DNA from: Chloroflexota bacterium
GTDB lineage: Bacteria > Chloroflexota > UBA11872
DNA: 64,000 nt
Assembly (NCBI GenBank): GCA_026707585.1
Contig: JAPOWQ010000051.1
Coordinates: 1-64,000, forward strand
Direction of reading: 5' to 3'
The position numbers were made by a program, and so were the translations under genes. This document shows, one piece after another, positions 19,841 to 47,672 of this stretch (positions within the stretch are counted from its first letter, which is position 1; every line of letters begins with the position of its first letter). The notes under the pieces are model-generated. The model was not told the origin of the DNA. It worked only from the letters and a program-made list of their open reading frames with translations, and did not search any database.

Positions 19841-20070
19841 GTCCGCCTATATCGAGGCTTCGGGGAGGGACACGAACGGCCGTGCTCCCGTGGTGGCAGC
19901 ACGGGGCATGGATTGAGCACCCCGGCACACCTGACGCACCATCTGTACCCACAGGCGTACGCCGCATGGTTGACCCGCAGCTTGAAGAACGGTTCCCGCA
20001 GGGCGGCGAATTGCACCCTGCCTCTGTTCCGCCATCCTTCCGCGCCCCAATCACCGCGGGCGGTCCTTGA

Positions 20071-22848: not shown

Positions 22849-22878
22849 CCGCCGATCGAGGCACCAGGCCTGGCCACC

Positions 22879-25713: not shown

Positions 25714-25813
25714 CCGTGCTCACGCGGCGGGCCGCTGGTCTGGAAGTATGACGCTCTTCGGGTTGTCCATCCTTGCGCCAGCGCGGACCAGGCCAGCGCG
25801 TGACCACCGCCGC

Positions 25814-26839
25814 TCAGATCAACTGATCACGCCACGTGGCCGGGGCGCGTTCGCTTCCGATCTCGAGACTATTCGGCAGGTAGACGGGCTCACGGGATCC
25901 CACCGTGCGCGCCCAGCGCACCATGGCCTCCACGCCCGCGCGCAGCGATGTGACGTTGCGAAAGCCAAGGACTTGCTCAGCCGCGTCGTGCGTACAGTAG
26001 GCGTTCTTGACCTCCAGCGGACGCGGCGGGAGGTAGATGGGCTCCTGTCCCTCCGGCCAGGCCCCGCCGTCGAAGAACACGTCGCGAACGACATCGGCAA
26101 GCTGATTGATCGAGACATCCTCGGACGAACCAATGTTGAAGACCCGGCCATTGGACCGCTGACTCAATCCCCCATCAACTATGGCGGGGTTGACGTCGCC
26201 GATGTATGAGTAGGCTCGGCGTTGTTCGCCGTCTCCGTAGATGTGAATTGCGCGGTCGCGCAGCAGGGCGTTGATGAAGATCGCCACCACGTTGCGATAC
26301 GGGTCGGCCAGATTCTGGCGCTCGCCGTAGACGTTGTGTGGCCGAAAGACCGCATAGTCAAAGCCGTGTACAGCTGACAGATGCTCAGTCGCCGCTTCCA
26401 TTGAGGCCTTCATTGCGGCGTACACGTCCTCGGGTAGACGCGGCATCGTCTCGTCGAACGGTGCCTGCTGCGCGCCGTAGACGCTCATCGAACTCACCAG
26501 CACGACTTTCGACAGCCCCTGGGCGATAGCCGGGACCAGCGTATTCAGGTACCCCACGACGTTGTTGTCCATGGAGCTGAGCGGGGTGAACTGGCTGCGC
26601 CCTTCGGTGGCGTCGGCGGCGTAGTGAAAGATCACGTCGGGGGCGGCGGACTCAACCAACCCCCTGGCCGCCGCCCGATCGGCCAGATCGCACTCCACGA
26701 ATTCCGCAGCCGGGTCCATGTTGTCCACATACCCGCCGATAAGGCTGTCGGCGGCAGTGACCTCATGGCCGAGCTCAAGCAGACGGTCCACGGCATGGCT
26801 TCCCATAAAGCCGGCCGCACCGGTTACCAGCACGCGCAT
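25814..26839 (-). CDS. NAD-dependent nucleotide-sugar epimerase/dehydratase
   Basis: This 341-residue extended-SDR protein of the UDP-glucose 4-epimerase type opens [15 protein letters not shown], the NAD-binding GxxGxxG motif. [21 protein letters not shown] with the catalytic Ser, and YAAMK (YxxxK) follow. [12 protein letters not shown] and [10 protein letters not shown] are typical of sugar epimerases. The enzyme would convert one nucleotide-linked sugar into another in the cytoplasm; which one is not readable. It is the only enzyme gene inside the + arm of the array and lies on the opposite strand, downstream of tRNA-Thr(TGT). If the array proteins transfer sugars, it could help supply a donor; that link rests on position alone. 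Confidence 0.85.
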
Positions 26840-27050
26840 GGGCAGCGTTCGCGCACTCCAATCACGCTAGGAACGTCGGGCGATTTGGCGCTGGACGGCC
26901 GCCGCGCCGCGCCGATTCTAGCCCAGGGGCTGCCCGTCAGACTTCCGGCCGGATACTGATCCAGCGCTCCTGACGGCGTGTGCCATGCTTGCGCGGCGCC
27001 GGAGCCGTAGCACAGGTGGACGCGAATAGCCTGCCTATCGCGTGCCAGGG

Positions 27051-27123
27051 AGCCCAGGGCGGGAGTCGAACCCACAACCTGCGGTTTACAAAACCGCTGC
27101 TCTGCCGATTGAGCCACCTGGGC
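27051..27123 (-). tRNA. tRNA-Thr (anticodon TGT)
   Basis: The acceptor stem is GCCCAGG/CCTGGGC. The D-arm GGCTCAATCGGCAGAGC, the anticodon stem GCGGT/ACCGC around TTTGTAA (anticodon TGT), and the T-arm with GGTTCGACTCC are all in place. The discriminator is T, and CCC rather than CCA follows, so CCA must be added after transcription, unlike the tRNA at 15326. It lies between the epimerase and array gene 4; the 188 bases before copy 4 hold nothing else I recognise. Confidence 0.95.
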
Positions 27124-27311
27124 GCGTGCTAAGCGTACTCGTCCGATCGCCGCGGGCTTCACGATGCACCACCACACGGCAATCGCGGCCATCAACATCA
27201 CGTGCCTCTCGAGACCCACAGTGCGGCTCTGGTGCAACGCCGGCCTCCACCAGGTATCCCACTGCAGGGGTGGCAGCAGCCGGATCGGGACAGACTCGGA
27301 GGCCTCGCTGA

Positions 27312-30122
27312 ATGACGGTTGATCCGACCGTTCTGCCTGGTCTCATGCTCCTGGCCGCGGAGTTGGGAGCGTTAACCGCCGTTGGCTTTGTGGTCGCGCG
27401 GGTTGCGCTGGGGCAGGCGGACGATCGGGTCGCGCTGGCACAGGGGCTGGTGGTCGGCCCCGCGGTCTGGGGACTGGCGGTCAGCCTGATCCTGCGTCTG
27501 CTGCCCGGGATGGCCGGCGCCATCGCGGGCTGGACTATCGTTCTGGCCATCGGCGCGGGGTTGGCCTGGCGGGCGCCGCATCGCGTGCGGCCGTCACCGC
27601 GCACGGTGGCCGGATTCACCGCCGCGGCGTTCCTGATCTTCTGGGTCGGCCTGGCTAGCCGCCAACTTCTAGTGATCCTGGACTGGCCCAACCACCTGGG
27701 GCTGGCCGCCTCGCTGCGGGCCGGCGGCTTTCCACCCACGCTGTCCTGGCATCCCGGATGGCCTGTGCCGTACCACTATGGCTTCGACCTGCTGGTCGGA
27801 CTGCTGACTCCGCCGTTCGGGCCCGACTTTGCCTTTGTTACGGAGTTGCTGAGCACCTACGTCTGGATGAGCCTGACTCTGGCGATCATCGCGACGCTGC
27901 TCGGTCGCGGCGGGTGGGTGAGCGCCCTGGCACTTGCCGGGCTGGTGCTGAGCCACGGGGCCTGGACGCGGATTGGCTTTGTCGAAGCCCCGGCTCTTAT
28001 CCAGGTTCCTGTCCTCACCGGGCTGCCGGCCGCGGGCCTTCGAGCCTCGTTAGCGAGCATCTACTGGCCCTCGACCGGGTTGCCGTGGGCCACGGTGCAC
28101 GACACCGTGCCGCCCAACATCTGGAGCCCGTCCTTCGCGCTGGCCTACGCCCTGGCGTTCGTGGCGTTGGAACGAGCCGCAGCCGGCGCCGAGCGCGAGT
28201 GGTTGGGGCGCGGGGCACTGGCCGCCCTGATTGGATTCCTTGGACTCGTCGCCGCCGAAGTAGCCGTGGTGGTGCTTGCCTTATGGGGCGCGCTGGGGGC
28301 TGTGCATCTGGTCCAGACCCGGTCGTCGGGTTCGGGGTTCTATCGGCGAGCCCTGCGCCTGGCGGCGGGGCCGGCGCTGGCCGCGCTGCTGCTGGCGGTG
28401 GGCGGCGGGGCACTCACTGGCATGCTGACCGGATCGTCCGGCGGCAGCTTGTCGCTTGGATGGACGGACGATCCGGGAAGCCTCCGACCGCTCGGGTCGC
28501 TGGATGTGCTGCCCGGGGGCGTGGGCGTGCTCGGGCTGGGGGTCATTCCGGTTGGCATCGCCACCGCACTGCTAGGCTGGCGTGACCGTCTGACGTGGGC
28601 GCTGCTCGGCGGCGCCGCAGTGCTGGTTCTCGCCGCCCTGACGCTGCATTACAAGCCCGCGCCATACGATCTCGCTCGGCTTGAAGGGCACGCCCGCAAC
28701 TTTGCGCTGCTGGCGCTCCTGCTGGCCCTGAGCGCTCGCCTGCCCCACCTCGCCGCCCAGCATCGCTACGCAGCCGGCGCGCTCGTAATTGCGCTGATTG
28801 CCTGGCCGACGGCCGTCGCGCCCGCCCGAGGCCTCAGCCTGGCGCTGGGGCACGGGGTGCAGCTGGCCAACGCGCAGCCGGGGCCACGGGAATTCGACGC
28901 CCACTATTGGTACATGGGCCGGCAGGCGATTCACAGCTTCCGTTCCGAGTCCGTCGCCGCGCACATCCGCACACATTCGGAAATTAACGACGCCGTGCTC
29001 TCGCCGAACCCACGTGAGATGTCAATCGCGACCGGCCGCCCAAACGCCTCGGGCTTTGTGGGGTTCACGCACCTGATTTGGGTTCCCGGTCCGGACTACG
29101 AAGACGCCATCCGCTACCTGGAGCCCGCGGCCATCCGCCGGATAGGCGTGACCTACGTGCATGCCACCGACGACTGGGTCGCCGGCCTTCCCGTGCGGGC
29201 CAGGCGCTGGTTGACGGACCCCCGGTACTTCGCGCCATTGGTGCGCCACGGGTCGGATGCCCTCTATCGTGTGCGCCCAGCGTTTCTGGAGCTTGACGCG
29301 CCGCCCACGCCTATGTCCTTCACGGCACTCCGGCAGGCGATCCGGCAAGCGGTCCCGGCATCCGCCACGGTGTACCTGTCACCCGGCATCCACTGGCCGG
29401 CCGCGCTGCGGCTGACGTCGGCGCTTTCGCACGCCCAACTGCTCGGTGTCGTGGGTTTGGGACATCCGCACGTGCTGCCGCCGATTCCTACCAGGCCGCT
29501 CGGTGCGCGTGCGCCCGACTTCGTGGCCGTACCGGCGCGGCTGGCGCCCTCCGCCTTCAGCCCGGGTGCGCGCGAGCCGATTCTGTGGACCGAGGAGATT
29601 GCCCTCTTCGCGGCAGACGGCAGCGCCGTCGGCGCCATGGATCCACCGCCACGGCCCTTTGGCGTTCAGCTATCGGACGTGCGTGTGGAAAGCCGTCGCA
29701 TTTCTTTCATCGCCACCTTTGCCGACGGCGCGCCGGACCGCTGGAACGGCCAGGACTGGCTGGTGGTCGCGGCGGACGCCTCACCATGGGCGTTTCCTCG
29801 AGAACTCGAGTCCGACGGTCGACACGCGGGCGCGCAGTGGTACGCCGGACAGATTGTCCCCGGTCAGGGAACGACGCGACATGCCTACGAGTTTGACCCA
29901 CAAGCGCCCAGGCTAGCCGTACTCGGCGATAACGGAGGGCATACCGCAACGGATTCGTCCGGGTCGGCGTTGCCCCCGGGCACATGGACGCTGGTCGTGC
30001 GCCTGCGCGCTGACTGGTGGGAAGCCGCCGTCATTCCCGTAATGAAAATCGTCATCAGCGCGCACGGCGAGGCGCGGTACGAGGTTTACGACGGCGCCTT
30101 GAACGCCACGCTTTTTCCATAA
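27312..30122 (+). CDS. array membrane protein 4 (GT-C-like, unassigned)
   Basis: The protein has 936 residues and GGAGG nine bases before its ATG, a strong ribosome-binding site for this array. The loops read ILDWPNH (D124, H128), VPYHYG and PPNIWSPSF. The acidic helix that reads LVDE or LEEA in the others is LVAAEVAV here. The exported half has TGRPNASGF, YLEPAAIRRIGVTYVHATDDW, and WNGQDWLVV followed by AQWYAGQIVPGQGTT, the C-terminal type shared with copies 7 and 8. No Cys tail. It lies 100 bases before copy 5 on the same strand, the same spacing as between copies 8 and 7. Confidence 0.75.
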   Translation: MTVDPTVLPGLMLLAAELGALTAVGFVVARVALGQADDRVALAQGLVVGPAVWGLAVSLILRLLPGMAGAIAGWTIVLAIGAGLAWRAPHRVRPSPRTVAGFTAAAFLIFWVGLASRQLLVILDWPNHLGLAASLRAGGFPPTLSWHPGWPVPYHYGFDLLVGLLTPPFGPDFAFVTELLSTYVWMSLTLAIIATLLGRGGWVSALALAGLVLSHGAWTRIGFVEAPALIQVPVLTGLPAAGLRASLASIYWPSTGLPWATVHDTVPPNIWSPSFALAYALAFVALERAAAGAEREWLGRGALAALIGFLGLVAAEVAVVVLALWGALGAVHLVQTRSSGSGFYRRALRLAAGPALAALLLAVGGGALTGMLTGSSGGSLSLGWTDDPGSLRPLGSLDVLPGGVGVLGLGVIPVGIATALLGWRDRLTWALLGGAAVLVLAALTLHYKPAPYDLARLEGHARNFALLALLLALSARLPHLAAQHRYAAGALVIALIAWPTAVAPARGLSLALGHGVQLANAQPGPREFDAHYWYMGRQAIHSFRSESVAAHIRTHSEINDAVLSPNPREMSIATGRPNASGFVGFTHLIWVPGPDYEDAIRYLEPAAIRRIGVTYVHATDDWVAGLPVRARRWLTDPRYFAPLVRHGSDALYRVRPAFLELDAPPTPMSFTALRQAIRQAVPASATVYLSPGIHWPAALRLTSALSHAQLLGVVGLGHPHVLPPIPTRPLGARAPDFVAVPARLAPSAFSPGAREPILWTEEIALFAADGSAVGAMDPPPRPFGVQLSDVRVESRRISFIATFADGAPDRWNGQDWLVVAADASPWAFPRELESDGRHAGAQWYAGQIVPGQGTTRHAYEFDPQAPRLAVLGDNGGHTATDSSGSALPPGTWTLVVRLRADWWEAAVIPVMKIVISAHGEARYEVYDGALNATLFP

Positions 30123-30222
30123 TCAAAACCACATGGCGCCTGTGCAAAGTCGCGTGATTGCCACGATGTGCCAGACCGCGAGTGATCGACACACCCTCAA
30201 GCCGACAACTGAGGCGGGCTGA

Positions 30223-33177
30223 ATGACCGTTGACCCGACAGTCATCCCGGGTCTGCTCTTGCTCGCTGCGGAGTTGCTGGCCCTTGGCGGGGTTGGCTTC
30301 GTGGTTGCGCGCGTGGTGTTGCGACAGACCGACGACCGGCTGGCGCTGGCACAGGGGCTGGTGATTGGACCGGCGGCGTGGGGGCTTTTGGCCAACGCTC
30401 TCCTGCACCCGTTCCCCGGCCGCGCCGGCGCGCTGGCGGCCTGGCTCATCATCCTCACCCTCGCCGCCGCCCTGGTCTGGCGCGCGCGCCCGGCGCCGTC
30501 GGTCACCCGGCGCACATTTGTCGGGTTCGTCTTGATCTTCCTGGCGGTTTTCTTGATCGCGCTGGCCGCCCGGCAGTCGCTCATCACCAGCGACGCCTAC
30601 CTTCGCTTTGGCCTGGGCGCCTCCATCCAGGCCGGAGTCTGGCCCCCCGCGCTGCCCTGGAATCCCTGGCAGCCCATTCCATATCACTACGGCGCCAGCT
30701 TGCTGGCCGCGCTGCTGGCTCCGCCGGAGGGACCGAACCTGGCCTTCTTGACCGAAGTGCTGGATGCGTACGCGTGGTCCAGCCTGATGCTGCTGGTTGG
30801 CGCGCTGCTCCTGCAGCGTGGCGGCTGGCTCGGCGGCCTGATTTTTGCCCCGCTTCTGCTCTCCGCCGGCGCCTGGACACAACTCAACGTGGCCTCCCCG
30901 GCGCTGATTCAGTTCCCGGCACCGACAGGCCCGCCGGAACCCGGGGTCCGCGCCGCCCTGGCTGGCCTGTACTGGCCAACCCCGGAATGGCCCTGGCCGT
31001 ATCCCGAACCCCACGCCGTTCCAGCCAACATCTGGTTCCTGCGCTTCACCCTCGCCTACGGGCTGGCCCTGACCGTCCTGGAACGCCTGACGGCGGGCCC
31101 CCGTCCGCCGGCTTGGCCCGCGGCCCTGACAGTCGCCGCCCTCATCGGTTTCGTGGGTCTTATCGAGGAAGCCGTCGCCCTGACGGTGCTGGGGCTGTGG
31201 GGTCTGCTGGAGGCCATCCGTATCCTGCGCGCTCGGCCAGACTGGGCGGAAGCCTTCACGGCCATACGGCGCGCCGCCGCCGGACCCTTGGTGGCCACGC
31301 TCCTCGTGGTGTCGGGCGGCGGCGTCATCACGGGCATGCTGACGACGGGGGAAACGAGCAGCGACCTGGTATTCGGCTGGATCGACAACCCCGGCCGTCG
31401 TCCACCGGGCTTCCTCGAGCAGCGGCCGGGCGGCCTGGCGCTGCTCGGTCTTGGCCCGGCCCTCGTGGCGCCCTTCGCCGTGCTGCTGGCCTGGCGCCAG
31501 CGCCTGGTCCTGGCGCTGGTGGGTGGCAGCGGCGTGTTTCTGGCGGTGGCTCTGCTGCTGAGGTACGAGATTGTCCCGCATAACATCGCTCGGCTCGATG
31601 GGCACGCCGGAGTCTTCGCCCTGCTGGCGCTGGTCACCGCGGCGGCGCCGCGCCTGCCCGCGTTGCCCTACCGCTGGCGCTATTTCGCCGGCGCCCTGAT
31701 CGTCCTCCTGGTCGTCTGGCCCACAATCGCAATGCCCATCCGCACCCTGGCCGTCCAGCTCGGCCGTGGGCTCGCCCTGGCCAATGCTCAGCCGCATCCC
31801 GCGGACCGCGATCCCGCGCTGTACGCAGGCGGTGTGGGCCGTCACGTCATGGAGTCGCTGACTCCAGACCGAGCGGCTCACTATCTCCCCGTTCCTTTGC
31901 CGCCACTGCATGTCCAGCCAACCGGCGCTCTGGCTCCAGACCGAGTCATCCGCTATATCCGCCACCAGACTCCCCCGGACGCCCGTATCTTCTCCCCGCA
32001 CCCACGGGAGCTGACCCTGGCCACCGGGCGCCCCAACGCCGCGGGGCTGGCCGGTCACCTGCACTACGTGTGGCATACCGGAGCCGAATACCGGGACGCG
32101 CTCAGCTACCTTGAGCCCGCCGCCCTTCGTCGGCTGGGCTTTGCCTTTGTGCATGCCACCGACGCCTGGGTCGCGAGCCTCCCCGACCGCGCCCGGCGCT
32201 GGCTCAACGACCCTGATCTGTTCGACCTGGTGGTGCGCGAGGGCGCCCATGCCCTCTACCGCGTCCAGCCAGCCTTCCAGCGCCTGGCTCCCCAACCCCA
32301 TCCGCAATCCTTCGAGGCCCTGCGGCAGGCGGTTCCCGCGTCCGCCTTGGTGTATCTGGGGGAGATCCCCCATCTCCTGGACAGAATCCCCATCGCGTCT
32401 GTGCTGGCGCATGCCCGGCTGGCCGGAAACGTGGATCAATCCATGATTCACCTGACGTCAGACCTTCCAACGGAGCCGCTTGGCGACCGCACGCCGGACG
32501 TGGTGATCATGCCGCGGGAACGCCCCATGGATGTCATCAGCAACCAGCCGGTTTCGACCATATGGGGGAATCACGTCCTTGTGGCCTACGCCATCTCGCC
32601 CACCATTGCCCCGCCCGCCGCTGCCCCGCCGCCACCAGTCATCAACTTCACCGTTCGGCTCTCGCACGTCCGCCTCGCCCATGACCGCATTCGCTTCGCC
32701 GCCACGTTCAGCAACCGCGCGCCCGAGCGGTGGACGGGTCAGGACTGGCTGGTGATCCAGATGACGGACGGCCCCTGGATACTGCCCACGCGGTACGAAG
32801 CCGATGGGTACACGAACATCGGCGCACGGTGGTTTGTTGGCCAGAGTACGCCGGGCAGCAACGGCGCCACGCACACGTATGAGTTCGACCCACTGATGGG
32901 GACGCTCGCGACTCAAGGTGCTGACGGGCATTTCGTCAGCTTGCCGTCCGCCGGCGACCGCCTGGCGCCCGGCGTCTACGTTCTGGCGGCCCGGCTGCGA
33001 CAACACTACCTCCAGGCGGCCGTCATCCCAGTGTTGAAGTTCGTGATCGCTCAGTCCGGCGACGTGGTCTACACCACCTATGCCGGCGAGCGCGGCGCAG
33101 ACGTGAATGCCTGTCCGGAAAGCCTGCAGCACACCGATGCCTGCCGCGAATTGACGGCCGTTGGTGCGGTCCCTTGA
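30223..33177 (+). CDS. array membrane protein 5 (GT-C-like, unassigned)
   Basis: At 984 residues this is the longest copy. The first loop reads TSDAYLR: D124 is kept but position 128 is Arg, not His. PWQPIPYHYG and a long second loop with WPWPYPEP before PANIW group its N-terminus with copies 6 and 7. About 30 extra residues precede the exported TGRPNA motif, including GALAPDRVIRYIRHQTPPDA; only copy 7 has a similar insertion. The C-terminus has WTGQDWLVIQ and a tail NACPESLQHTDAC with the Cys pair of copies 1 and 6. Long frames on the opposite strand are composition shadows. Confidence 0.75.
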   Translation: MTVDPTVIPGLLLLAAELLALGGVGFVVARVVLRQTDDRLALAQGLVIGPAAWGLLANALLHPFPGRAGALAAWLIILTLAAALVWRARPAPSVTRRTFVGFVLIFLAVFLIALAARQSLITSDAYLRFGLGASIQAGVWPPALPWNPWQPIPYHYGASLLAALLAPPEGPNLAFLTEVLDAYAWSSLMLLVGALLLQRGGWLGGLIFAPLLLSAGAWTQLNVASPALIQFPAPTGPPEPGVRAALAGLYWPTPEWPWPYPEPHAVPANIWFLRFTLAYGLALTVLERLTAGPRPPAWPAALTVAALIGFVGLIEEAVALTVLGLWGLLEAIRILRARPDWAEAFTAIRRAAAGPLVATLLVVSGGGVITGMLTTGETSSDLVFGWIDNPGRRPPGFLEQRPGGLALLGLGPALVAPFAVLLAWRQRLVLALVGGSGVFLAVALLLRYEIVPHNIARLDGHAGVFALLALVTAAAPRLPALPYRWRYFAGALIVLLVVWPTIAMPIRTLAVQLGRGLALANAQPHPADRDPALYAGGVGRHVMESLTPDRAAHYLPVPLPPLHVQPTGALAPDRVIRYIRHQTPPDARIFSPHPRELTLATGRPNAAGLAGHLHYVWHTGAEYRDALSYLEPAALRRLGFAFVHATDAWVASLPDRARRWLNDPDLFDLVVREGAHALYRVQPAFQRLAPQPHPQSFEALRQAVPASALVYLGEIPHLLDRIPIASVLAHARLAGNVDQSMIHLTSDLPTEPLGDRTPDVVIMPRERPMDVISNQPVSTIWGNHVLVAYAISPTIAPPAAAPPPPVINFTVRLSHVRLAHDRIRFAATFSNRAPERWTGQDWLVIQMTDGPWILPTRYEADGYTNIGARWFVGQSTPGSNGATHTYEFDPLMGTLATQGADGHFVSLPSAGDRLAPGVYVLAARLRQHYLQAAVIPVLKFVIAQSGDVVYTTYAGERGADVNACPESLQHTDACRELTAVGAVP

Positions 33178-33480
33178 TCCCCGTAACGGTGGTGATGGCT
33201 GCGCGGAGGCAGGCAACGGCCGACGCGGCTTGTGTGGCTTGTCTAGGCCTCGGCCTGGCAGGTGGATCTACCGAGCCAACGGCGCCGTCTAAGCGCCGGC
33301 CGCCGATCCCCACGCTCCGCCCATACGCCGTCTTGAACCGCATCGTGTGAAATCTTGATCCGCACGTCGCTAGCCTGACCAAACACACGGCACGGAACGC
33401 CCAGGCATGCCACCAGCCCACGCTGTCCGCATTCAAGTTGCTCCGCCCGCCAGGACAGTCCTGGCGCGGAGGCTGGCGGC
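33178..33480. other. 303-base gap between array genes 5 and 6
   Basis: I see no gene, hairpin or clear promoter here. GGAGG at the far end is the ribosome-binding site of copy 6. Confidence 0.3.
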
Positions 33481-36372
33481 ATGACGGTTGATCCAGCGGT
33501 CATGCCGGGACTGCTGCTGCTCACCGCGGAGGTCTTGGCGCTAGCCGGGCTTGGCTACATCGTGACTCGGGTTGTCCTGCGCCAGACCGACGATCGGATG
33601 GCGTTGGCCCAGGGACTGCTGGTCGGTCCGACGCTGTGGGGCCTGCTCGTCAGTTTCCTGCTGAGCCCGCTGCCCCGGCTGGCAGGCACGCTCGCAGGCT
33701 GGGCTGTCATGCTGATGATCGGGGCGATCCTGGCCCGCCGTGCCGCGCCGACGCTGCGGTTGCGGCCACGCACGCTCGCCGGATTCAGCGCCGTGGCGCT
33801 GGCCCTTTTCTGCCTGGCGCTGGCGGCGCGGCAATTGCTGATCATTCCCGACGCCATCGTGCGCGTGGGCCTCGCGGCCTCGATCCAGGCAGGAGCCTGG
33901 CCGCCCGTGCTGCCCTGGATCCCCTGGCAGCCAATCCCCTATCACTACGGCGCCTCCTTGCTGGTCGGCTTGCTCGACCCGCCGGTTGGCCCTGATCTGG
34001 CTTTCACGACCGAACTCCTGGGCGCCTTTGCCTGGACCAGCCTGGCCCTCGTGGTCGGCACCGCGCTTCTCAGGCGCGGCGGGTGGCTCAGTTCTCTCAC
34101 CCTGACGCCGCTGCTGCTGACAGCCGGCGCATGGACGCTCGTGTTTCATGAAGCGCCGGCAGCGCTCCAGCTCCCTGTCCCAGGCGGTCTTCCCACAGCC
34201 GGGCTGCGCGCTTCCCTGGCCGACATCTACTGGCCAGCCGTTGAGTGGCCGTGGAGCTATCCGGAACCCGAGGCGTCGCCCCCCAACATCTGGAAGCCCT
34301 CGTTCACGCTGGCCTACGGGCTGGCGTTCGTGATCCTGGAGCGATTGACGGCCGGCCCAGTGCGGCCTGACTGGGCCGCAGCGCTGACGCTGGCGGGGCT
34401 GGTCGGGTTCCTGGGCCTCCTGGAGGAAGCCGTGGCGCTGACCGTGCTTGGGGTCTGGAGCGTAGTCACCGCGGGGCGCGTCCTGCACGCTCACCGAGCA
34501 CGCGGCAACGCCCGCAGGCTGGTGCCGCACGCGGCCCTGGGACCGGCCGCCGCGGCCTTGTTGCTGGCCTTGGGCGGCGGGATCCTCGCCGATGTCCTGA
34601 CCAGATCGGCCGGCGGCGATCTTTCGATCCAGTGGCCCAACGACCCAAACACTCGCCACCTGCTTGGATCCCTCACCACGCGGCCGGGCGGCGTGGGCAT
34701 GCTGGGCCTCGGCCCCCTGGCCGTCACCGCCGCGGCGCTGGTCGTGGGCTGGCGGCTTCGCCTGGTCCTGGCGCTGGCGGTTGGCAGCGGCGCGTTCATC
34801 CTCGCCGCGCTGACGCTGGAGTACCAGAACTCGCCGGACCTGGTTCGTCTGGACGGGCACGCCCGCAGCTTCGCCCTGCTGACGCTGCTCGTCGCTGTTG
34901 CCGCCCGCCTGGCCGCCCTCCGTCCGCGCTGGCGCTACGCCGCCGCCGCACTCATCATTGCCCTCGTCGCCTGGCCCACCATTGCGCTCCCGCTACGCAA
35001 GCTTGGCCGAGGGTTGGAGCGCGGCATTCACCTCGCCAACGCCCAATCGGGACAGCCGGACTTCGGTGAGGCGTTCGTATCCATGGGCCGCTACACACTC
35101 CCGCCCTTTGCTTCAGAGCATCTAACCGCCTATGTCCGCGACCATACGCCCGTCAATGCGCGCGTCCTCTCGCCCCGCCCAGATGTAATGTCCCTCGCTA
35201 CAGGTCGTCCAAATGCCTCGGGATTCGAAGGCCTTGCCCACTACGTGTGGAGAACCGGCCCCGGATACAGGGATGCCATTCGCTTCCTCGAGCCTCCCGC
35301 GCTGCAGCGCCTCGGCATCACCCATGTGCATGCCACGGACGCCTGGGTCGCCAGCCTGCCCGACCGGTCCAGGCGCTGGCTGGACGATCCGGGACTCTTC
35401 GACTTGCTTGTTCGCGACGGCGCCGACGCGTTCTATCGCGTCCGGCCGGCCTTCCTGCGCCTGGATCCGCGGCCCGTCCCACAATCCTTCGAGGCGCTGC
35501 GGCAGGCCCTCCCGGCGTCCACCAACGTATACCTCACGGAATCGCTCGAGCCCCTGCAGAAGATCCGCCTGGCGTCGTTGCTGCCGCACACCACGCTATT
35601 GGCGACACTCGGCCCCTCCAGGCTCCACCTGCTCACGGACATCCCAAGCGAGCCGCCGGGCACGCGACGTCCCGACGTGGTGGTGGTGGCGCGCGATCTG
35701 CCCTTTGATGTCGGCACGCACAGGCTCCCCGCCATCTGGTGGAATCAGAACGCGATCGCCTACGCCGTTCGTCCGTCGATCGCGCCGACAGTCGATCCAC
35801 CGCCCCTGCCGGAGCCCGACTTTAGCGTCCGCCTGTCCAATGTCGACTCGGCCGCCGACAAGATTCGCTTCACGGCAACATTCACCGACCACGCCTCCGA
35901 CCAATGGACGGGACAGGACTGGCTCGTCGTTGAAATCGAGGACAGCCCCTGGGCCTGGCCGATTCACTACGAGGACGGCGGGTACACGCTGGCGGGCGCC
36001 TGGTGGTTCGCCGGCCAGGCAGTCCCCAGTAGTCGACCAATCAACCAGAGATACGAATTCGACGCGCTGGCCGGCGCCCTGGCCGCCCAAACCGCCGGCG
36101 GCGACTTTGCCCCTGTTCAGGCAGCCGGCGACCGCCTGACGCCGGGCGTGTGGGTGCTGGCGGTCCGGATCCGGCAGCACAACCTGCAAGCGGCCGTCAT
36201 CCCGGTACTGAAGATCGTGATATCCAAGCCCGGGGACGTGACATACAGCGTCTATCCGGGCGAACGCCGAACGGCCGTCAACCCTTGCCCGGAACGCGTC
36301 CGGCACACGGTGTCGTGCCGCCAACTGGATGGAAAAACCACTTCTCCGGTTTCCCCCTATACGGCGGCATAG
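33481..36372 (+). CDS. array membrane protein 6 (GT-C-like, unassigned)
   Basis: The protein has 963 residues, with GGAGG eight bases before its ATG. The first loop reads IPDAIVR: D124 with Arg at 128, as in copy 5. PWQPIPYHYG, WPWSYPEP and PPNIWKPSF place the N-terminus with 5 and 7. The helix LLEEAVALTVLG is acidic at its centre. The exported half has TGRPNASGF, FLEPPALQRLGITHVHATDAW and WTGQDWLVV, then EDSPWAWPIHYE, almost the same as copy 1, and the tail NPCPERVRHTVSC with the Cys pair. It lacks the insertion of 5 and 7. The DUF3604-like gene follows on the same strand. Confidence 0.75.
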   Translation: MTVDPAVMPGLLLLTAEVLALAGLGYIVTRVVLRQTDDRMALAQGLLVGPTLWGLLVSFLLSPLPRLAGTLAGWAVMLMIGAILARRAAPTLRLRPRTLAGFSAVALALFCLALAARQLLIIPDAIVRVGLAASIQAGAWPPVLPWIPWQPIPYHYGASLLVGLLDPPVGPDLAFTTELLGAFAWTSLALVVGTALLRRGGWLSSLTLTPLLLTAGAWTLVFHEAPAALQLPVPGGLPTAGLRASLADIYWPAVEWPWSYPEPEASPPNIWKPSFTLAYGLAFVILERLTAGPVRPDWAAALTLAGLVGFLGLLEEAVALTVLGVWSVVTAGRVLHAHRARGNARRLVPHAALGPAAAALLLALGGGILADVLTRSAGGDLSIQWPNDPNTRHLLGSLTTRPGGVGMLGLGPLAVTAAALVVGWRLRLVLALAVGSGAFILAALTLEYQNSPDLVRLDGHARSFALLTLLVAVAARLAALRPRWRYAAAALIIALVAWPTIALPLRKLGRGLERGIHLANAQSGQPDFGEAFVSMGRYTLPPFASEHLTAYVRDHTPVNARVLSPRPDVMSLATGRPNASGFEGLAHYVWRTGPGYRDAIRFLEPPALQRLGITHVHATDAWVASLPDRSRRWLDDPGLFDLLVRDGADAFYRVRPAFLRLDPRPVPQSFEALRQALPASTNVYLTESLEPLQKIRLASLLPHTTLLATLGPSRLHLLTDIPSEPPGTRRPDVVVVARDLPFDVGTHRLPAIWWNQNAIAYAVRPSIAPTVDPPPLPEPDFSVRLSNVDSAADKIRFTATFTDHASDQWTGQDWLVVEIEDSPWAWPIHYEDGGYTLAGAWWFAGQAVPSSRPINQRYEFDALAGALAAQTAGGDFAPVQAAGDRLTPGVWVLAVRIRQHNLQAAVIPVLKIVISKPGDVTYSVYPGERRTAVNPCPERVRHTVSCRQLDGKTTSPVSPYTAA

Positions 36373-38831: not shown

Positions 38832-40829
<1,998 letters not shown>

Positions 40830-40883
40830 CCGGCACTGACCCTGAATCGGGTCGCGCTGCGATGGCTAGCGTCGATCGGACTT

Positions 40884-40899
40884 TGTGAATACAATCACA
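40884..40899 (+). promoter_or_regulatory. CRP/FNR-type palindrome over the cytochrome gene promoter
   Basis: TGTGA-ATACAA-TCACA matches the classic CRP operator TGTGA-N6-TCACA exactly. Inside it, TACAAT (40890-40895) matches five of six bases of a -10 hexamer, so bound protein would cover the promoter. A six-bp hairpin GGGCGC-GTGT-GCGCCC (40903-40918) follows, with the GGGGAGA ribosome-binding site directly after it. The regulator itself is not in the window. Confidence 0.55.
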
Positions 40900-40935
40900 A
40901 AAGGGCGCGTGTGCGCCCGGGGAGACGCTGACCGC

Positions 40936-41490
40936 ATGACCGGCCACAGCCCGAGCCGCCGCCTGCTGGCTGCCTTGGCGTTCTCTCTCATGTTGGCCGG
41001 CATGTTGACCTCCTGCGGCGAAGGCCGAACCGTGACCACGGCCAGCGCGGTTGTGGTCGCGCCTGTGCCGGTGCCGCAAATCACGATGCCGCCGGATCGG
41101 ACGCCGGCGCCGGCGGTGGAATCGCCCACGCCACGGGTGGCCGAGGCGATAATGGCCGTCACCCCGGTCACGGTCACTCCAACGCCGTCAGTGACACCCA
41201 CGCCAACTGGAGGTCCTGGCCCGACCGAAACGGCGGCTGCGATCGCCTCGCTTAGCGGCGCCGCTGAAGCGGGCCGCCAGCAGTTCACGGCCCTGGGCTG
41301 CATCGCATGTCACGGCGCCGATCTGAGCGGCGGGATTGGCCCGCAGCTGGCTGGCCGAACGCCCGACGATTTGCCCGAGGACCGCATTCGTTCGCAGGCC
41401 ATGCAAGGCGGCAGCGGGATGCCGGCCTTCCCGAACCTTTCCGAGCAGGAGCTGCAGAACTTCATCGCGTTCATCCGCAGTCAGCAGTAG
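40936..41490 (+). CDS. lipid-anchored class I-type cytochrome c
   Basis: The protein has 184 residues. A signal peptide ends in the lipobox LTSC with Cys27, so the protein should be lipid-anchored on the outer face of the membrane. A Thr/Pro/Val-rich linker (about 30-105) follows, then a single-haem domain: ALGCIACHGADLSGGIGPQL with the CxxCH haem site, and GGSGMPAFPNLS with the likely axial Met. ELQNFIAFIRSQQ is the usual last helix. It should shuttle electrons in respiration. The ATG at 40936 is chosen because the GGGGAGA site precedes it and it starts the signal peptide; an upstream GTG at 40885 falls in the operator. Its position after acs suggests carbon or oxygen control, which is inference. 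Confidence 0.85.
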   Translation: MTGHSPSRRLLAALAFSLMLAGMLTSCGEGRTVTTASAVVVAPVPVPQITMPPDRTPAPAVESPTPRVAEAIMAVTPVTVTPTPSVTPTPTGGPGPTETAAAIASLSGAAEAGRQQFTALGCIACHGADLSGGIGPQLAGRTPDDLPEDRIRSQAMQGGSGMPAFPNLSEQELQNFIAFIRSQQ

Positions 41491-41839: not shown

Positions 41840-44737
41840 TCATGAAACCGGCGCGGCGCGGGGTGCCGCCTCAAATGCCTCGTACGCAATCCCGCCATCC
41901 TCGGAAACCACGATCCTCAACACGGGAATCAAGGCGAGTTCCCACCAGTCGCCACGCAAACGCACGGCAAGCGCCCAGACGCCCGACTCCAATCCGGCCC
42001 CAGACGACTGCACATTGGCAAAGACGCCGTCATCGCCCCGCACGGCCAGTCTCGGCACTCGTGCGTCGAAATTGTAGGCGAATGTTGTCGTGCCCTTACC
42101 CGGAACGACCTGGCCGGCATACCACTGGGTTCCCCTTGCGAGCGTATCCCCCTCAGATTCGATCGTGGCGGGCAACGCCCACGGCGTTGCGTCCACTGGG
42201 ATGACCAGCCAATCCTGGCCCTTCCAGGCGTTCGTCGATGCCTGGTCGGCGAATGTTGCGGTGAAGGCGACTCCGCCAGCACCTGTCTGGACCTCTGAGA
42301 CCCGAATGCCCAACATTGGCTGAGGTTGCGTCCACGAGCCCATCACGGGCGTGATGACATCGTCGTCAGCGTAGACAGCGATCGCATCGTTCCACCAGAC
42401 CGGCGAATCTCCCGATGCCCTGTGCACCCAGGACGAGAACCGCCGCGGGACACCCACGACGTTGGGCATCCGCTCGCCTACGGGCTCCGTCGGGATGTCC
42501 GTAAGCACGTGAATCCCGGACGACCGGTCCAGCCGACCCAGCAAGCGCGTATGTCCGAGCACGGAGGCTGCCCGAATCGCGTGAGCAGGTTCGAGTCCCT
42601 TCAGCCGAACAAGGGCCGCGGAGGGCGCCGCCTGCCTGAGCGCCTCGAACGACGCCGGTGTGGGCGCTACCTCCAGGCTCAGGAATTCGGGCTCGATGCC
42701 ATACAGCGCGTGGGCGCCGTCGCGTGCCAGAAGTTCGAACAGCCGCGGATCGTCCAGCCAGGCTTGCGCGCGCTTTGGCAGGCCGGCGACCCAGGCGTCA
42801 GTGGCATGGACATACGTAACGCCAAGCCGCTGGACGGCCTGCGGTTCGAGGAAACTGATGGCGTCGGCGTACTCGGGTCCGAATCTCCATTCGACGTGCA
42901 ACAGTCCCGCGAATCCCGATGCATTTGGACGGCCAGTCGCGAGCGTCATTTCGCTGGGATGGCGCGACAGGATCAGCGCATTGGCCGGCGTATGTTCACG
43001 GACATAACTGGTCACCAGGTCGGGAGCAAGAGCCCCGTGGGGACGCGTATGCAGCAGCGTCTCCGGATTGCTGATGTAGTGCGGAAGCTGGTCGGGTGCG
43101 AGCTGTTCGATCGGCCGACGGCCAATGCCGACCGAGGATAAGTCGGGTTGCGTCAAGGCGCTGCCGGGTTGAGCATTTGCCAGGGCTACGCCGCGGCTCA
43201 ATTCGAGGCCAAGGGTGCGGATTGGAAGTACCACCGTTGGCCACACAATCAGCGCAATGGCCGAGGCGCTCACCGAAAGACGCCACCGCGGACGCAGTTC
43301 CCGCAGGCGTCCGGCGCCCGCCACCAGCAATGCCAGCAAGGCGAAGTTGCCGGCGTGTCCGTCCAAACGGGCATCCTGCGGCACCGAGAGTTCGGACTTC
43401 AGCGCCATGCTGAAGAGCAAGCACACGGCACTGCCCATTGCCAGCCCCAGCACGAGGCGATCACGCCACATCAGCAGCACGGCCGCGGATGCCACGAAGG
43501 CTGGTCCCAACCCGAGCAGGGCAAGGCCACCGGGGCGGGATTCCACCGATACCAGCGGCCGAAGGTTTGGCGCTCCGGCCATCCAGCCAAGTGCCAGGTC
43601 TCCGCCGGCTGACCCCACCAGGATGCCGGTGATCACACCCCCGCCGACGCCCAACAACAGGGCCGCCGCCACCAACCCTGGAAGCGAACGCCGCGCCACA
43701 TGCAGAGCCTTGGCCCGCGCGCGGCCGGCCTGCAGAACCCGCCCCGCCTCCGCCACACCCCACAGGCCCAGGGTCACAAGCGCGATCGCTTCTTCAAGCA
43801 GGCCCAGGAATCCGACGAGCACGGCCAGGAGCAGGTTCGCGGACCAGCCGGACATCCGCGGACGGCTGATCACGCGTTCCATCACGACGAATGCCAGCCC
43901 GTAGGCAAGCGTGAAGCGCGAGAACCAGATGTTGGGAGGAGACGCGTATGGCTCCGGCCAGGGCCAGGGCCAGGATGGCGCCGGTCCATAGATTCCGCCC
44001 AACGACGAACGAATCCCGGCGCTCGGAAGTCCCGCCGGGATCGGAATCTCGAGGAGAGCCGGGGGCGGAGCGAGCAGCGGCGTCCAGGCCCCCGCCGTCA
44101 GCACGAGTGGTGCGAGGGTAAACAGGCCAGCCCGCCCACCACGCTGGAAGAGCATGGCGCCAGCGAGCAGGGCCAGACCGGACCACGCATACGCATCCAG
44201 CATCTCGGTTGTGAAGGCCAGGTCCGGTCCAACCGGGGGACCCAAGAGCGCGACCAGCAGCATGGACCCGTAGTGGTACGGGGCCGGCTGCCAGGGGCTC
44301 CAGGGCAAGACAGGCGGCCATACCCCGGCCTGCATTGGAGCGGCCAGCCCCAGGTGCAGGTGAGCATCGCCGATAATCAGCGTTTGGCGAGCTGTGAGGG
44401 CGATTCCGAAGACGACCAACGCCGCCATCCCGAATCCCGCGAGCGTGCGTGCGGCAATCCGCCGCGCCGATGGACTCCGCCAGACCAGCCCGGCGGCCAA
44501 CGCGAGGATGACGACCCAGCCGACGAGTGCTCCGGCGCGCCCTGGCAGCAGGTGGAGGACGAAGTTGACCAGCAGGCCCCAGAACGCCGGGCCTACCACC
44601 AATCCTTGCGCCAGCGCCAGCCAGTCATCTGTCTGTCGCAGCACCACTCGCGCCAGGACAAAACCCACCGCGGCCAGCGCCACAAGCTCCGCCGCCAGGA
44701 GCGACAGCCCCGGGACGACCGCCGGATCAACGGTCAT
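41840..44737 (-). CDS. array membrane protein 7 (GT-C-like, unassigned)
   Basis: The protein has 965 residues. The loops read IGDAHLH (D124, H128), PWQPAPYHYG, WPWPWPEP and PPNIWFSRF, so its N-terminal half belongs with copies 5 and 6. Like copy 5 it has about 30 extra residues before the exported TGRPNASGF, ending GALAPDLVTSYVREHTPANA. The C-terminal half differs from 5 and 6: WKGQDWLVI, TQWYAGQVVPGKGTT and no Cys tail, the type of copies 4 and 8. The copy is thus a clear mosaic. It begins GGCTGAATGACCGTTGA, the same start context as copy 5. It is second in a two-gene unit, 100 bases after copy 8. Confidence 0.75.
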   Translation of the reverse strand: MTVDPAVVPGLSLLAAELVALAAVGFVLARVVLRQTDDWLALAQGLVVGPAFWGLLVNFVLHLLPGRAGALVGWVVILALAAGLVWRSPSARRIAARTLAGFGMAALVVFGIALTARQTLIIGDAHLHLGLAAPMQAGVWPPVLPWSPWQPAPYHYGSMLLVALLGPPVGPDLAFTTEMLDAYAWSGLALLAGAMLFQRGGRAGLFTLAPLVLTAGAWTPLLAPPPALLEIPIPAGLPSAGIRSSLGGIYGPAPSWPWPWPEPYASPPNIWFSRFTLAYGLAFVVMERVISRPRMSGWSANLLLAVLVGFLGLLEEAIALVTLGLWGVAEAGRVLQAGRARAKALHVARRSLPGLVAAALLLGVGGGVITGILVGSAGGDLALGWMAGAPNLRPLVSVESRPGGLALLGLGPAFVASAAVLLMWRDRLVLGLAMGSAVCLLFSMALKSELSVPQDARLDGHAGNFALLALLVAGAGRLRELRPRWRLSVSASAIALIVWPTVVLPIRTLGLELSRGVALANAQPGSALTQPDLSSVGIGRRPIEQLAPDQLPHYISNPETLLHTRPHGALAPDLVTSYVREHTPANALILSRHPSEMTLATGRPNASGFAGLLHVEWRFGPEYADAISFLEPQAVQRLGVTYVHATDAWVAGLPKRAQAWLDDPRLFELLARDGAHALYGIEPEFLSLEVAPTPASFEALRQAAPSAALVRLKGLEPAHAIRAASVLGHTRLLGRLDRSSGIHVLTDIPTEPVGERMPNVVGVPRRFSSWVHRASGDSPVWWNDAIAVYADDDVITPVMGSWTQPQPMLGIRVSEVQTGAGGVAFTATFADQASTNAWKGQDWLVIPVDATPWALPATIESEGDTLARGTQWYAGQVVPGKGTTTFAYNFDARVPRLAVRGDDGVFANVQSSGAGLESGVWALAVRLRGDWWELALIPVLRIVVSEDGGIAYEAFEAAPRAAPVS

Positions 44738-44837
44738 TCAGCCAATCCCGGGCCCGTGTTTCCGGGTTCCTTGGGCGTCTGTGGGCGGCACGCCAGTCCA
44801 GCAGTCGCTGCAGAGCCGTCGCGAAACCTGCAGGAGC

Positions 44838-47672
44838 TCACGGCATCAATGCCGCGCCTAGTGTTCCCTCATAGACCTGGTACGAGATGTCGCCAGTCTG
44901 AGAGACCGATACCTTGATCAGCGGAATAAAGGCGACTTCCCACCACTCGCCGCGTAGGCGTACGGCCAGCACCCACACGCCGGGTTCCAGGCCGCCGCCG
45001 GACGCCATTGTCTGGGCAACGCTGCCATCCTCATTCTGCACGGAAAGACTGACGTCGCGTGGGTCAAACTGCACCCGCAACATTGTGGTTCCCCTGCCGG
45101 GCACGACCTGCCCGCCGTACCACTGAACGCCGGCATGCCGGCGTTCGTCCGCTTCGAACTCACTCGGAATGGCCCAGGGCGAAGCGTCCACGGCCACCGT
45201 GAGCCAGTCCTGACCACGCCACAAGCCCGGGGCGCGGTCATTGAACGTGGCGGTGAAGCTGATCTGCCCCTGCGCTGCCTCCACGTCAGAAACCGCGACG
45301 CTGAAATCCCGCGCCGGTGGGGTCACAATGCGGTCAATGGCGCCCGACGGCGCATACACCGCAATCTCCTCATTCCACCAGATCGGCTCGCGCTGGTTCA
45401 CCGGAAACGCGGATGGTGCAAGCAGCGCTGACGTGACGACCAGATCGGGCGTCTGATCACCCAGCGGTTCAGACGCAAAGTCCGGCCGGCTGTGCCAGGT
45501 TGGCGTAGGACGCGCCCGGCCCAGGAGCCGCGTGTGCGAGAGCACGACGGCCGCGCGAATCGAGTTCACAGGTTCGAGCGCCGGTGACAGATAGACCGTG
45601 GTGGACGCCGGGACCGCCTGTCGCAGCGCCTCGAACGACCTCGGCGGAGGCGTCGTATCGAGTTCCAGGAACGCCGGTTGGATACCGTAGAGGGTGTCCT
45701 CGCCGTCGCGGACAAGCGGGCGAAACTGCTCGGGACTATCCAGCCACCGTCTGGCCTGCTCGGGCAGACCGGCAACCCATGCGTCCGATGCATGCACGTA
45801 CGTCGCTCCCAGGCGGTGCACAGCCAGCGGTTCCAGGTGTTGGATTGCGTCCAGGTACTCCGGTCCGTACACGGGAACGAATTGCACGAACTCAGCGTAA
45901 GCGGAGGCGTTGGGGCGGCCCGTCACGATGGACATCTCCGTGGGAACCGGCGAGAGGATCCGGGCATCGACCGGCGTGTGCAGCCGGATGTACTCAGCCA
46001 CGACTGGCGACATTGGCTTCGGCATCGCGTACCGACCAATCAAGTCCGCGGGATAGCGCAATGGCGCCGGCTGGGCATTCGCCAATTGAGGTCCGCGTGT
46101 CAGAGCCAGGCCGACGTTATGTACCGGCGCCACGGCCGTTGGCCAGGTAACTAAGCCCACCAGCAGCGCGCTCGCGGCATAGCGCCCGCGCGGCGGCATG
46201 GCCGCCAGGCGGGCGGCCAGCGCCACCAGCAGGCCCAGCAGCGCGAAATTGCGCGCATGCCCGTCCAGGCGCACCAGGTCCAGCGAATACTCGTAGCGCA
46301 GGCTGAACGCGGCCAGCAGCAGCAGTCCGGCGGCCGCGGTCAGGGCCAGTACCAACCGCTGCCGCCACGCCAGCAGCAGCGCCGCCGCCCCCACCGGCAG
46401 CGTGCCGAGCTCCAGCAGGCCCACGCCGCCTGGCCAGCTGCTGAACTCGCCCACCGGACGCCGGCTGCCGGCATCCGCGATCCACCCCAGCGTCAAGCCG
46501 GACCGCGCTGAACTGGTCAGAGCGCCCGTGATGGCGCCGCCGGCGACCGCCAGCAGCAACGCGGCCAGCGCCGGCCCGGCCGCCGCTCGCAAAATCGGGG
46601 CCCAGGGCACGGCCCGCGCCGCGTCGCCTCCACCTCGGCTCGCGAGCAACGACCGAAGGTGCCCGCTCCGCGCGACCTCCAAGACCTCCAGCCCCGCCCA
46701 CAGCACGAGCACGATGGGAGCGATCGTTTCGTCGACCAGTCCCAGGAAGGCAAGCAATAGCGCCAGCGTCGTCTGTGCCAGCCACCCCCGCCCGCTTCCG
46801 GCCGTCACACGCTCAAGGGCAACGAACGCCAGGGCGTAGGCCAGCACGAAATGCGGCTTCCAGACGTTCGCCGGCGACATCTCAACCGCGGCCGTCCACG
46901 CGTCGTTCACGGCCGGCCAGTAAACCTCAGTCAGCGCGGCCCGCAAGCCGGCCGCCGGCAAGCCCGCCGGAACGGGCAATTGCAGAATGCCCGGCGGCGT
47001 GGTGTAGTGCAGTTGCGTCCACAGCCCGAACGAGAGCAGCAACGGGCAGATCGCCAGCGCCGTAAGCCGAGACCCGAACCGCAGCACCGTGGTCACCACG
47101 ATCAGGGCCAGGCCCGTCCAGGCGTAGGCGTCGATGACCTCGGTCGTAAACGCCGCGTCCGGTCCGACTGGCGGAGCCAGCAACGACGTCAGCAGGTCCG
47201 CGCCGTAGTGGTAGGGCGCCGGCACGCCGGGTTGCCAGGGAAAGGCCGGCGGGTACCCGCCCGCCCGGATGGAGGCGGCCAGGCCGAGGTGGAGATAGGC
47301 ATCTACGATCGACATCAACTGCCGACTGGCCAGCACCACCCAGAAGAGCGCCAGCACCGCCGCGGCAAAGCCGACGACCATTCGCGGCGGCGCCCGCAGC
47401 GCGGCGGGCCGCTGCCAGGCCAGTCCCGCGGCCAGCGCCAGCGTGATGGCCCAGGCCGCGGCCGCTCCCGCCATGCCGGGCAGCGCGTGCAGGACGAAGT
47501 TGACGATCAGCCCCCACAGCGCCGGTCCGATCACCAGCCCCTGGGCCAGCGCCAGGCCGTCGTGGGACTGTCGCAGTGCAACGCGCGCGACCACATAGCC
47601 GACCGCCGCCAGCCCCAGCAACGCCGCCGCCAGCAGCAGCAAGCCGGGAATCACGGACGGGTCAAGCGTCAT
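44838..47672 (-). CDS. array membrane protein 8 (GT-C-like, unassigned)
   Basis: The protein has 944 residues and GGAG nine bases before its ATG (start CCTGAATGACGC). The loops read IVDAYLH (D124, H128), APYHYG and SPANVWKPHF; a helix reads LVDETIAPIVL as in copies 2 and 3. There is a longer polar stretch around residues 335-350. The exported half has TGRPNASAY, HLEPLAVHRLGATYVHASDAW and WRGQDWLTV, then VQWYGGQVVPGRGTT, the C-terminal type of 4 and 7, with no Cys tail. It heads the - strand arm of the array and is followed by copy 7. Confidence 0.75.
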   Translation of the reverse strand: MTLDPSVIPGLLLLAAALLGLAAVGYVVARVALRQSHDGLALAQGLVIGPALWGLIVNFVLHALPGMAGAAAAWAITLALAAGLAWQRPAALRAPPRMVVGFAAAVLALFWVVLASRQLMSIVDAYLHLGLAASIRAGGYPPAFPWQPGVPAPYHYGADLLTSLLAPPVGPDAAFTTEVIDAYAWTGLALIVVTTVLRFGSRLTALAICPLLLSFGLWTQLHYTTPPGILQLPVPAGLPAAGLRAALTEVYWPAVNDAWTAAVEMSPANVWKPHFVLAYALAFVALERVTAGSGRGWLAQTTLALLLAFLGLVDETIAPIVLVLWAGLEVLEVARSGHLRSLLASRGGGDAARAVPWAPILRAAAGPALAALLLAVAGGAITGALTSSARSGLTLGWIADAGSRRPVGEFSSWPGGVGLLELGTLPVGAAALLLAWRQRLVLALTAAAGLLLLAAFSLRYEYSLDLVRLDGHARNFALLGLLVALAARLAAMPPRGRYAASALLVGLVTWPTAVAPVHNVGLALTRGPQLANAQPAPLRYPADLIGRYAMPKPMSPVVAEYIRLHTPVDARILSPVPTEMSIVTGRPNASAYAEFVQFVPVYGPEYLDAIQHLEPLAVHRLGATYVHASDAWVAGLPEQARRWLDSPEQFRPLVRDGEDTLYGIQPAFLELDTTPPPRSFEALRQAVPASTTVYLSPALEPVNSIRAAVVLSHTRLLGRARPTPTWHSRPDFASEPLGDQTPDLVVTSALLAPSAFPVNQREPIWWNEEIAVYAPSGAIDRIVTPPARDFSVAVSDVEAAQGQISFTATFNDRAPGLWRGQDWLTVAVDASPWAIPSEFEADERRHAGVQWYGGQVVPGRGTTMLRVQFDPRDVSLSVQNEDGSVAQTMASGGGLEPGVWVLAVRLRGEWWEVAFIPLIKVSVSQTGDISYQVYEGTLGAALMP

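Follow-up and report, generated by a model that had tools for sequence, protein, structure and literature searches.

Operators of the CRP/FNR family, such as those of E. coli CRP and actinobacterial GlxR, are built on a 16-bp TGTGA-N6-TCACA core. In the available parts of two studies, the general consensus of Rex operators is given as TTGTGAANNNNTTCACAA, with an outer T and an outer A added to the same TGTGA-N6-TCACA and a preference for A at base 7 and T at base 12 (PMC5317091, PMC5355995). In other bacteria, according to the accessible portions of three papers, Rex binds such sites with NAD+, blocks RNA polymerase and leaves the DNA with NADH (PMC5355995, PMC8836258, PMC2883068). The sections at hand on S. 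avermitilis describe nuo and atp as direct Rex targets, with operators in or near the promoter and repression relieved by NADH (PMC5355995). In S. aureus, as far as the excerpted text goes, the motif was first written TGTGAn6TCACA and a gel shift proved the binding of Rex (TTGTGAAW4TTCACAA) (PMC2883068).

The window, i.e. the whole 64-kb stretch of DNA analysed here, carries such a palindrome before a cytochrome c gene. The preliminary description had reported an exact TGTGA-N6-TCACA with a -10-like TACAAT inside it, upstream of a lipid-anchored cytochrome gene next to acs, and had ascribed it to a repressing regulator of the CRP/FNR family. The palindrome, the hexamer at 40890-40895, the lipoprotein-like cytochrome c gene (PF13442, PF00034) and its acs neighbour (TIGR02188) were all found as described. 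We propose that the palindrome at 40884-40899 is most likely an operator of Rex, the NAD+/NADH-sensing repressor (probability about 0.9, judged from sequence), and that the CRP reading is probably wrong. The genes before which companion sites occur decide between Rex and CRP. The features of the locus are the following.

38832-40829, + strand: acs, acetate--CoA ligase, upstream neighbour of the cytochrome gene (TIGR02188, 933 bits for a cut-off of 725)
40879-40882, + strand: GACT, invariant leftward extension of the operator, from conservation across the genomes of the genus
40883-40900, + strand: TTGTGAATACAATCACAA, putative Rex-type operator, holding the 16-mer 40884-40899
40884-40899, + strand: TGTGAATACAATCACA, the reported 16-mer, exact TGTGA-N6-TCACA
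40890-40895, + strand: TACAAT, candidate -10 hexamer within the operator, from the hexamer and its conservation
40903-40918, + strand: inverted repeat GGGCGC-GTGT-GCGCCC, near the predicted transcript 5' end, conserved in the genus
40936-41490, + strand: lipoprotein-like monoheme cytochrome c, 184 aa, putative regulated gene (PF13442, 1.4e-12; PF00034, 5.2e-9)

The 16-mer TGTGAATACAATCACA was the sole exact match within the window. With up to two mismatches, TGTGA-N6-TCACA gave 10 matches in the window compared to 15.2 expected from shuffles, so that only the exact site stands out there. The genome-wide scan for TGTGAN6TCACA proposed in the preliminary description returned 5 exact 16-mers, versus 2 for the backwards control and about 1 expected from base composition, so on its own the 16-mer is only mildly unusual. 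The extended 18-mer TTGTGA-N6-TCACAA was present in 3 exact copies genome-wide versus 0.027 expected; the site had been called striking, and this holds for the 18-mer and only mildly for the 16-mer. The extended site TTGTGAATACAATCACAA differs at one of 14 positions from the Rex operator TTGTGAA-N4-TTCACAA (TTGTGAANNNNTTCACAA): in the right half, base 12 is A instead of T. Both outer bases, T and A, are present, and the Rex base 7 is matched in one half. The cytochrome ATG (40936) is located 35 nt downstream of the extended site.

We investigated the conservation of the site upstream of cytochrome homologues in 41 genomes. The search returned 30 loci, with the cytochrome present in 25 of the 41 genomes, and the upstream DNA was compared for 24 of these loci (L008-L037 without L027-L032, whose matches are distant and partial). 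A 22-base block, 40879-40900, reads GACTTTGTGAATACAATCACAA without any variation in 11 of the genus's 13 genomes, the one containing the window among them. In the acs-cytochrome intergenic region of the same genomes (10 distinct sequences), all 18 columns of the 18-mer were invariant versus 34 of the 97 columns outside it (Fisher p = 9e-8), the mean pairwise identity outside the 18-mer being 73%. The inner six bases and the GACT on the left were likewise invariant. The two remaining genomes of the genus showed one arm mismatch (G003) and a degenerate site (G002). In the sister genus g2, no site was found upstream of the homologous cytochrome genes (10 loci in 6 genomes); the best candidates within 500 bp had 3-4 mismatches out of 10. 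Since g2 lacks the site and that of G002 is degenerate, the cytochrome operator is specific to the genus, which, like the deviating base 12, counts against the Rex reading. The conservation before orthologous cytochrome genes suggested as a check in the preliminary description was therefore found in 11 of the genus's 13 genomes and in none of the 6 of g2. The palindrome and its conservation are not due to chance.

In one genome of the genus, G008, a tandem duplicate of the cytochrome gene (L130, G008:C189) carries a separate operator in which both six-base arms are preserved and the core reads ATAAGA in place of ATACAA; the arms of this operator are symmetric out to GACTTTGTGA...TCACAAAGTC. 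GACT stands on both flanks in some sister sites, namely GACTTTGTGA...TCACAAAGTC and GAGTTTGTGAA...TTCACAAACTC.

The cytochrome residues C27, C122, C125 and H126 were invariant across 12 aligned homologues, and C27 is presumably the lipobox cysteine. Among named relatives, the closest cytochromes come from metagenome assemblies of Chloroflexota, in keeping with an uncultured member of this phylum. No Rex-type site was listed before acs by the genome-wide pattern scans of the window's genome. The inverted repeat at 40903-40918 sits between the operator, directly 3' of it, and the ribosome-binding region. As a candidate regulatory RNA, this hairpin has conserved pairs with no compensatory changes seen, and the predicted folds of three leaders differ from one another. 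Its minus-strand form scores terminator-like; in many relatives, however, additional C residues separate the arms from the T run, so this form is not conserved. On either side of acs and the cytochrome gene (16970-36369 and 41843-47672) are encoded eight paralogue-like proteins, 925-984 aa long, which all start with M-[TM]-[VL]-[DE]-P; the three of them that were scanned gave no Pfam match.

The Rex pattern with up to two mismatches was found at 10 sites genome-wide, versus 1 for the reversed pattern. Seven of the ten precede operons or genes, and five of those seven are respiratory, as listed below.

Site 1 of 7: 40883-40900, + strand, before the cytochrome c gene
Site 2 of 7: between rex and nuoA-B-C-D (Complex I; PF00507, PF00346)
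Site 3 of 7: before ctaC-ctaD, caa3-type oxidase (CoxB and CtaD_CoxA models over cut-off)
Site 4 of 7: before the atp operon (ATP synthase; PF00119)
Site 5 of 7: before the Alternative Complex III operon (ActD PF11821, molybdopterin and cytochrome subunits)
Site 6 of 7: before an MMPL transporter gene
Site 7 of 7: positions 4979-4996 at L118, perfect Rex operator between divergent marR-like and fabZ-like genes, with 11-base arms GAGTTTGTGAA...TTCACAAACTC

The other three sites are intragenic (L219, L220) or have no called gene nearby (L221). Subunit II of the oxidase carries a cytochrome c domain. The atp operon of the sister genus is likewise preceded by a site, and copies identical to the atp and Alternative Complex III sites are also present in further genomes of the window's own genus. 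Among the 14 half-sites of the seven, base 7 was A in 11, base 1 was T in 12 and base 2 was T in 11, preferences which agree with the Rex consensus. Exact CRP-consensus sites devoid of the outer TT...AA occur twice in the genome, both inside called genes. A sixth TTGTGA-N6-TCACAA site with up to one mismatch (G000:C36, L121), flanked by a sulfatase-like and an ABC-type gene in divergent orientation, both named from reading their translations, does not match the Rex pattern even with two mismatches allowed.

MMPL-family genes in two families of the order have Rex-type sites about 60 bp or less upstream (L120/L218, L128, L135, L136 and L194), an unexpected partner for respiratory genes.

The genome encodes one clear Rex (PF06971 over cut-off, PF02629), with a phmmer E-value of 7e-47 to Thermus T-Rex 3ikv and six NCBIfam Rex models above their cut-offs. 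The protein has the winged helix and Rossmann domains of the family, and its DNA-contact residues are mostly kept. Among the 12 DNA-contact residues taken from the available part of the T. maritima Rex study (PMC8836258), 9 are identical here, with K49 replaced by R, K43 by T and S52 by A. The NAD-contacting Tyr100 of T. maritima Rex corresponds to Y96. An 18-bp pattern, a Rex in the genome, respiratory sister sites and conservation before orthologues were thus all observed for the palindrome.

Across the 41 genomes the Rex pattern gave 319 sites versus 64 for the control, and was above the control in all 41. Three genomes, G020, G021 and G023, contain Rex and have no PF00027 match. Despite this, Alternative Complex III is preceded by an exact site in G020 and G023, as is an MMPL gene in G021. 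The remaining sites examined in these three genomes were mostly intragenic or not clearly placed, which weighs against the Rex reading; in G021, where 6 of the 13 site regions were inspected, one was clearly placed (MMPL), one plausible and four intragenic or unclear. The sole near-complete genome (96%) in which no Rex was found, G019, has two PF00027 matches in one open frame and a single site with up to one mismatch, intragenic and equal to the control. A further point against the Rex reading is that G039 (81% complete) and G040 (77% complete), in which no Rex was found, still have sites (5 versus 0 and 14 versus 0 for the control, respectively), although Rex may be missing from their assemblies only; G040 has ten PF00027 matches. 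Exact-arm sites of these two genomes (L206, L208-L211) are located near genes for plastocyanin-like lipoproteins, so named from reading the translation, and genes of unassigned function. In the sister genus, an intergenic exact-arm site on G013:C13, TTGTGAGCGCATTCACAA (L131, L226), has no evident respiratory gene nearby.

Binding by a CRP/FNR-family regulator, which would repress by covering the -10, is very improbable, even though TGTGA-N6-TCACA is exact and the search for CRP/FNR homologues called for in the preliminary description did find two such proteins in the genome, each with cNMP_binding and HTH_Crp_2 domains. The outer bases are of Rex type and the content of the regulon is Rex-like, with sister sites at rex/nuo, Alternative Complex III, the oxidase and ATP synthase. 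A CRP/FNR protein is not present in every site-bearing genome: sites persist in G020, G021 and G023, which have no PF00027, and two of these carry the exact Alternative Complex III site together with Rex. The two exact CRP-type sites that lack the outer TT/AA are intragenic. The recognition motif of E. coli CRP is R-E-x-x-x-R, and the corresponding stretches here are SRETATQ in the first CRP-like protein and VRESVSL in the second. Both keep R-E, with Gln or Leu in place of the third Arg, so that neither retains the full motif; this argument is weak, because some actinobacterial CRP relatives also differ there.

The two kinds of regulator might also compete for one palindrome. Such dual use of the site by Rex and a CRP-like protein is conceivable because both consensus sequences have TGTGA and TCACA as their core, spaced six bases apart, and in the accessible part of the S. 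aureus work the Crp/Fnr-like ArcR and Rex are reported at overlapping targets (PMC2883068). No independent sign of a CRP-like regulon was seen here, and the conservation follows the Rex form; such competition is very improbable. That the block is conserved merely as a core promoter, the palindrome being incidental, would fit the -10-like TACAAT and the invariant inner bases and is the least probable of all, since both arms are invariant, similar arms enclose other inner bases at the six remaining operons or genes, and the G008 duplicate keeps the arms while its inner bases change.

Regarding the position of the Rex operator, we consider it somewhat likely that it overlaps the -10 TACAAT of the cytochrome promoter. 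A promoter scan of 40780-40960 found no sigma-70 promoter-like pair and no -35 partner, so that TACAAT is suggested as a -10 by the hexamer and its conservation. Upstream of nuoA, a TATCAT that looks like a -10 lies just before the operator, and the position of the operator may therefore differ between genes. A repressor over the -10, as first supposed, fits better than an activator, with Rex instead of CRP as the protein. Class I or class II activation by CRP was considered and rejected: the centre of the site is about 44 bp before the ATG, with no room for a downstream promoter and a normal leader, and the GC-rich DNA between the site and the ATG also disfavours it.

At a low NADH/NAD+ ratio, dimeric Rex with NAD+ would bind the cytochrome promoter, probably over TACAAT, and would block RNA polymerase there. 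When NADH rises, for instance as oxygen falls, Rex would release the DNA, and the cytochrome would then be made along with the rest of the respiratory chain. The shared operator and the domain type suggest that the cytochrome probably links Alternative Complex III to the oxidase as an electron carrier; an operator common to Complex I, Alternative Complex III, the oxidase and ATP synthase supports such a carrier role in the chain. It is likely that, in this class of uncultured Chloroflexota, a single NADH-sensing repressor controls almost the entire aerobic chain as one unit: Complex I, Alternative Complex III, the caa3-type oxidase and ATP synthase as well as the lipoprotein-like cytochrome c. 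If so, transcription of the chain would follow the NADH to be oxidised, and Rex would have Alternative Complex III and its cytochrome carrier among its targets. A misleading CRP label is replaced by a regulator with a known signal, and the cytochrome is consequently predicted to be made at high NADH.

The literature searched, mainly non-subscription and with the RegPrecise 3.0 Chloroflexi collection outside its scope, yielded no account of Rex regulation in Chloroflexota; in the same, mainly non-subscription literature none was found of Rex control of Alternative Complex III. The portion of PMC5317091 at hand ties Rex to a hydrogenase operon and not to Alternative Complex III. The class of Rex operators is already known, and what surrounds the cytochrome site is an unusually complete respiratory regulon. 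With CRP/FNR operators the site shares the 16-bp core; unlike them, it has the outer T/A and, in one half, the base 7 that fit Rex, and its companion genes are Rex-type targets. The Rex proteins of T. maritima and Thermus (PDB 7WB3, 3IKV, 3IL2) belong to the same family over the full length, with DNA contacts mostly kept; the T. maritima residues K43, K49 and S52 are replaced by T, R and A, and the targets differ. In S. aureus, the available text presents the same CRP/Rex ambiguity as at 40884-40899, with Rex targets that are largely anaerobic or fermentative, whereas they are respiratory here (PMC2883068). The Rex regulon of S. avermitilis, in the sections at hand, has the same motif TTGTGAANNNNTTCACAA and the same nuo and atp targets; there, cyd is also among the targets and rex shares a transcript with hem genes, whereas here rex adjoins nuo, and sites are found at Alternative Complex III, the caa3-type oxidase, a separate lipoprotein-like cytochrome c, MMPL and marR/fabZ, unlike in S. 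avermitilis as covered by those sections (PMC5355995).
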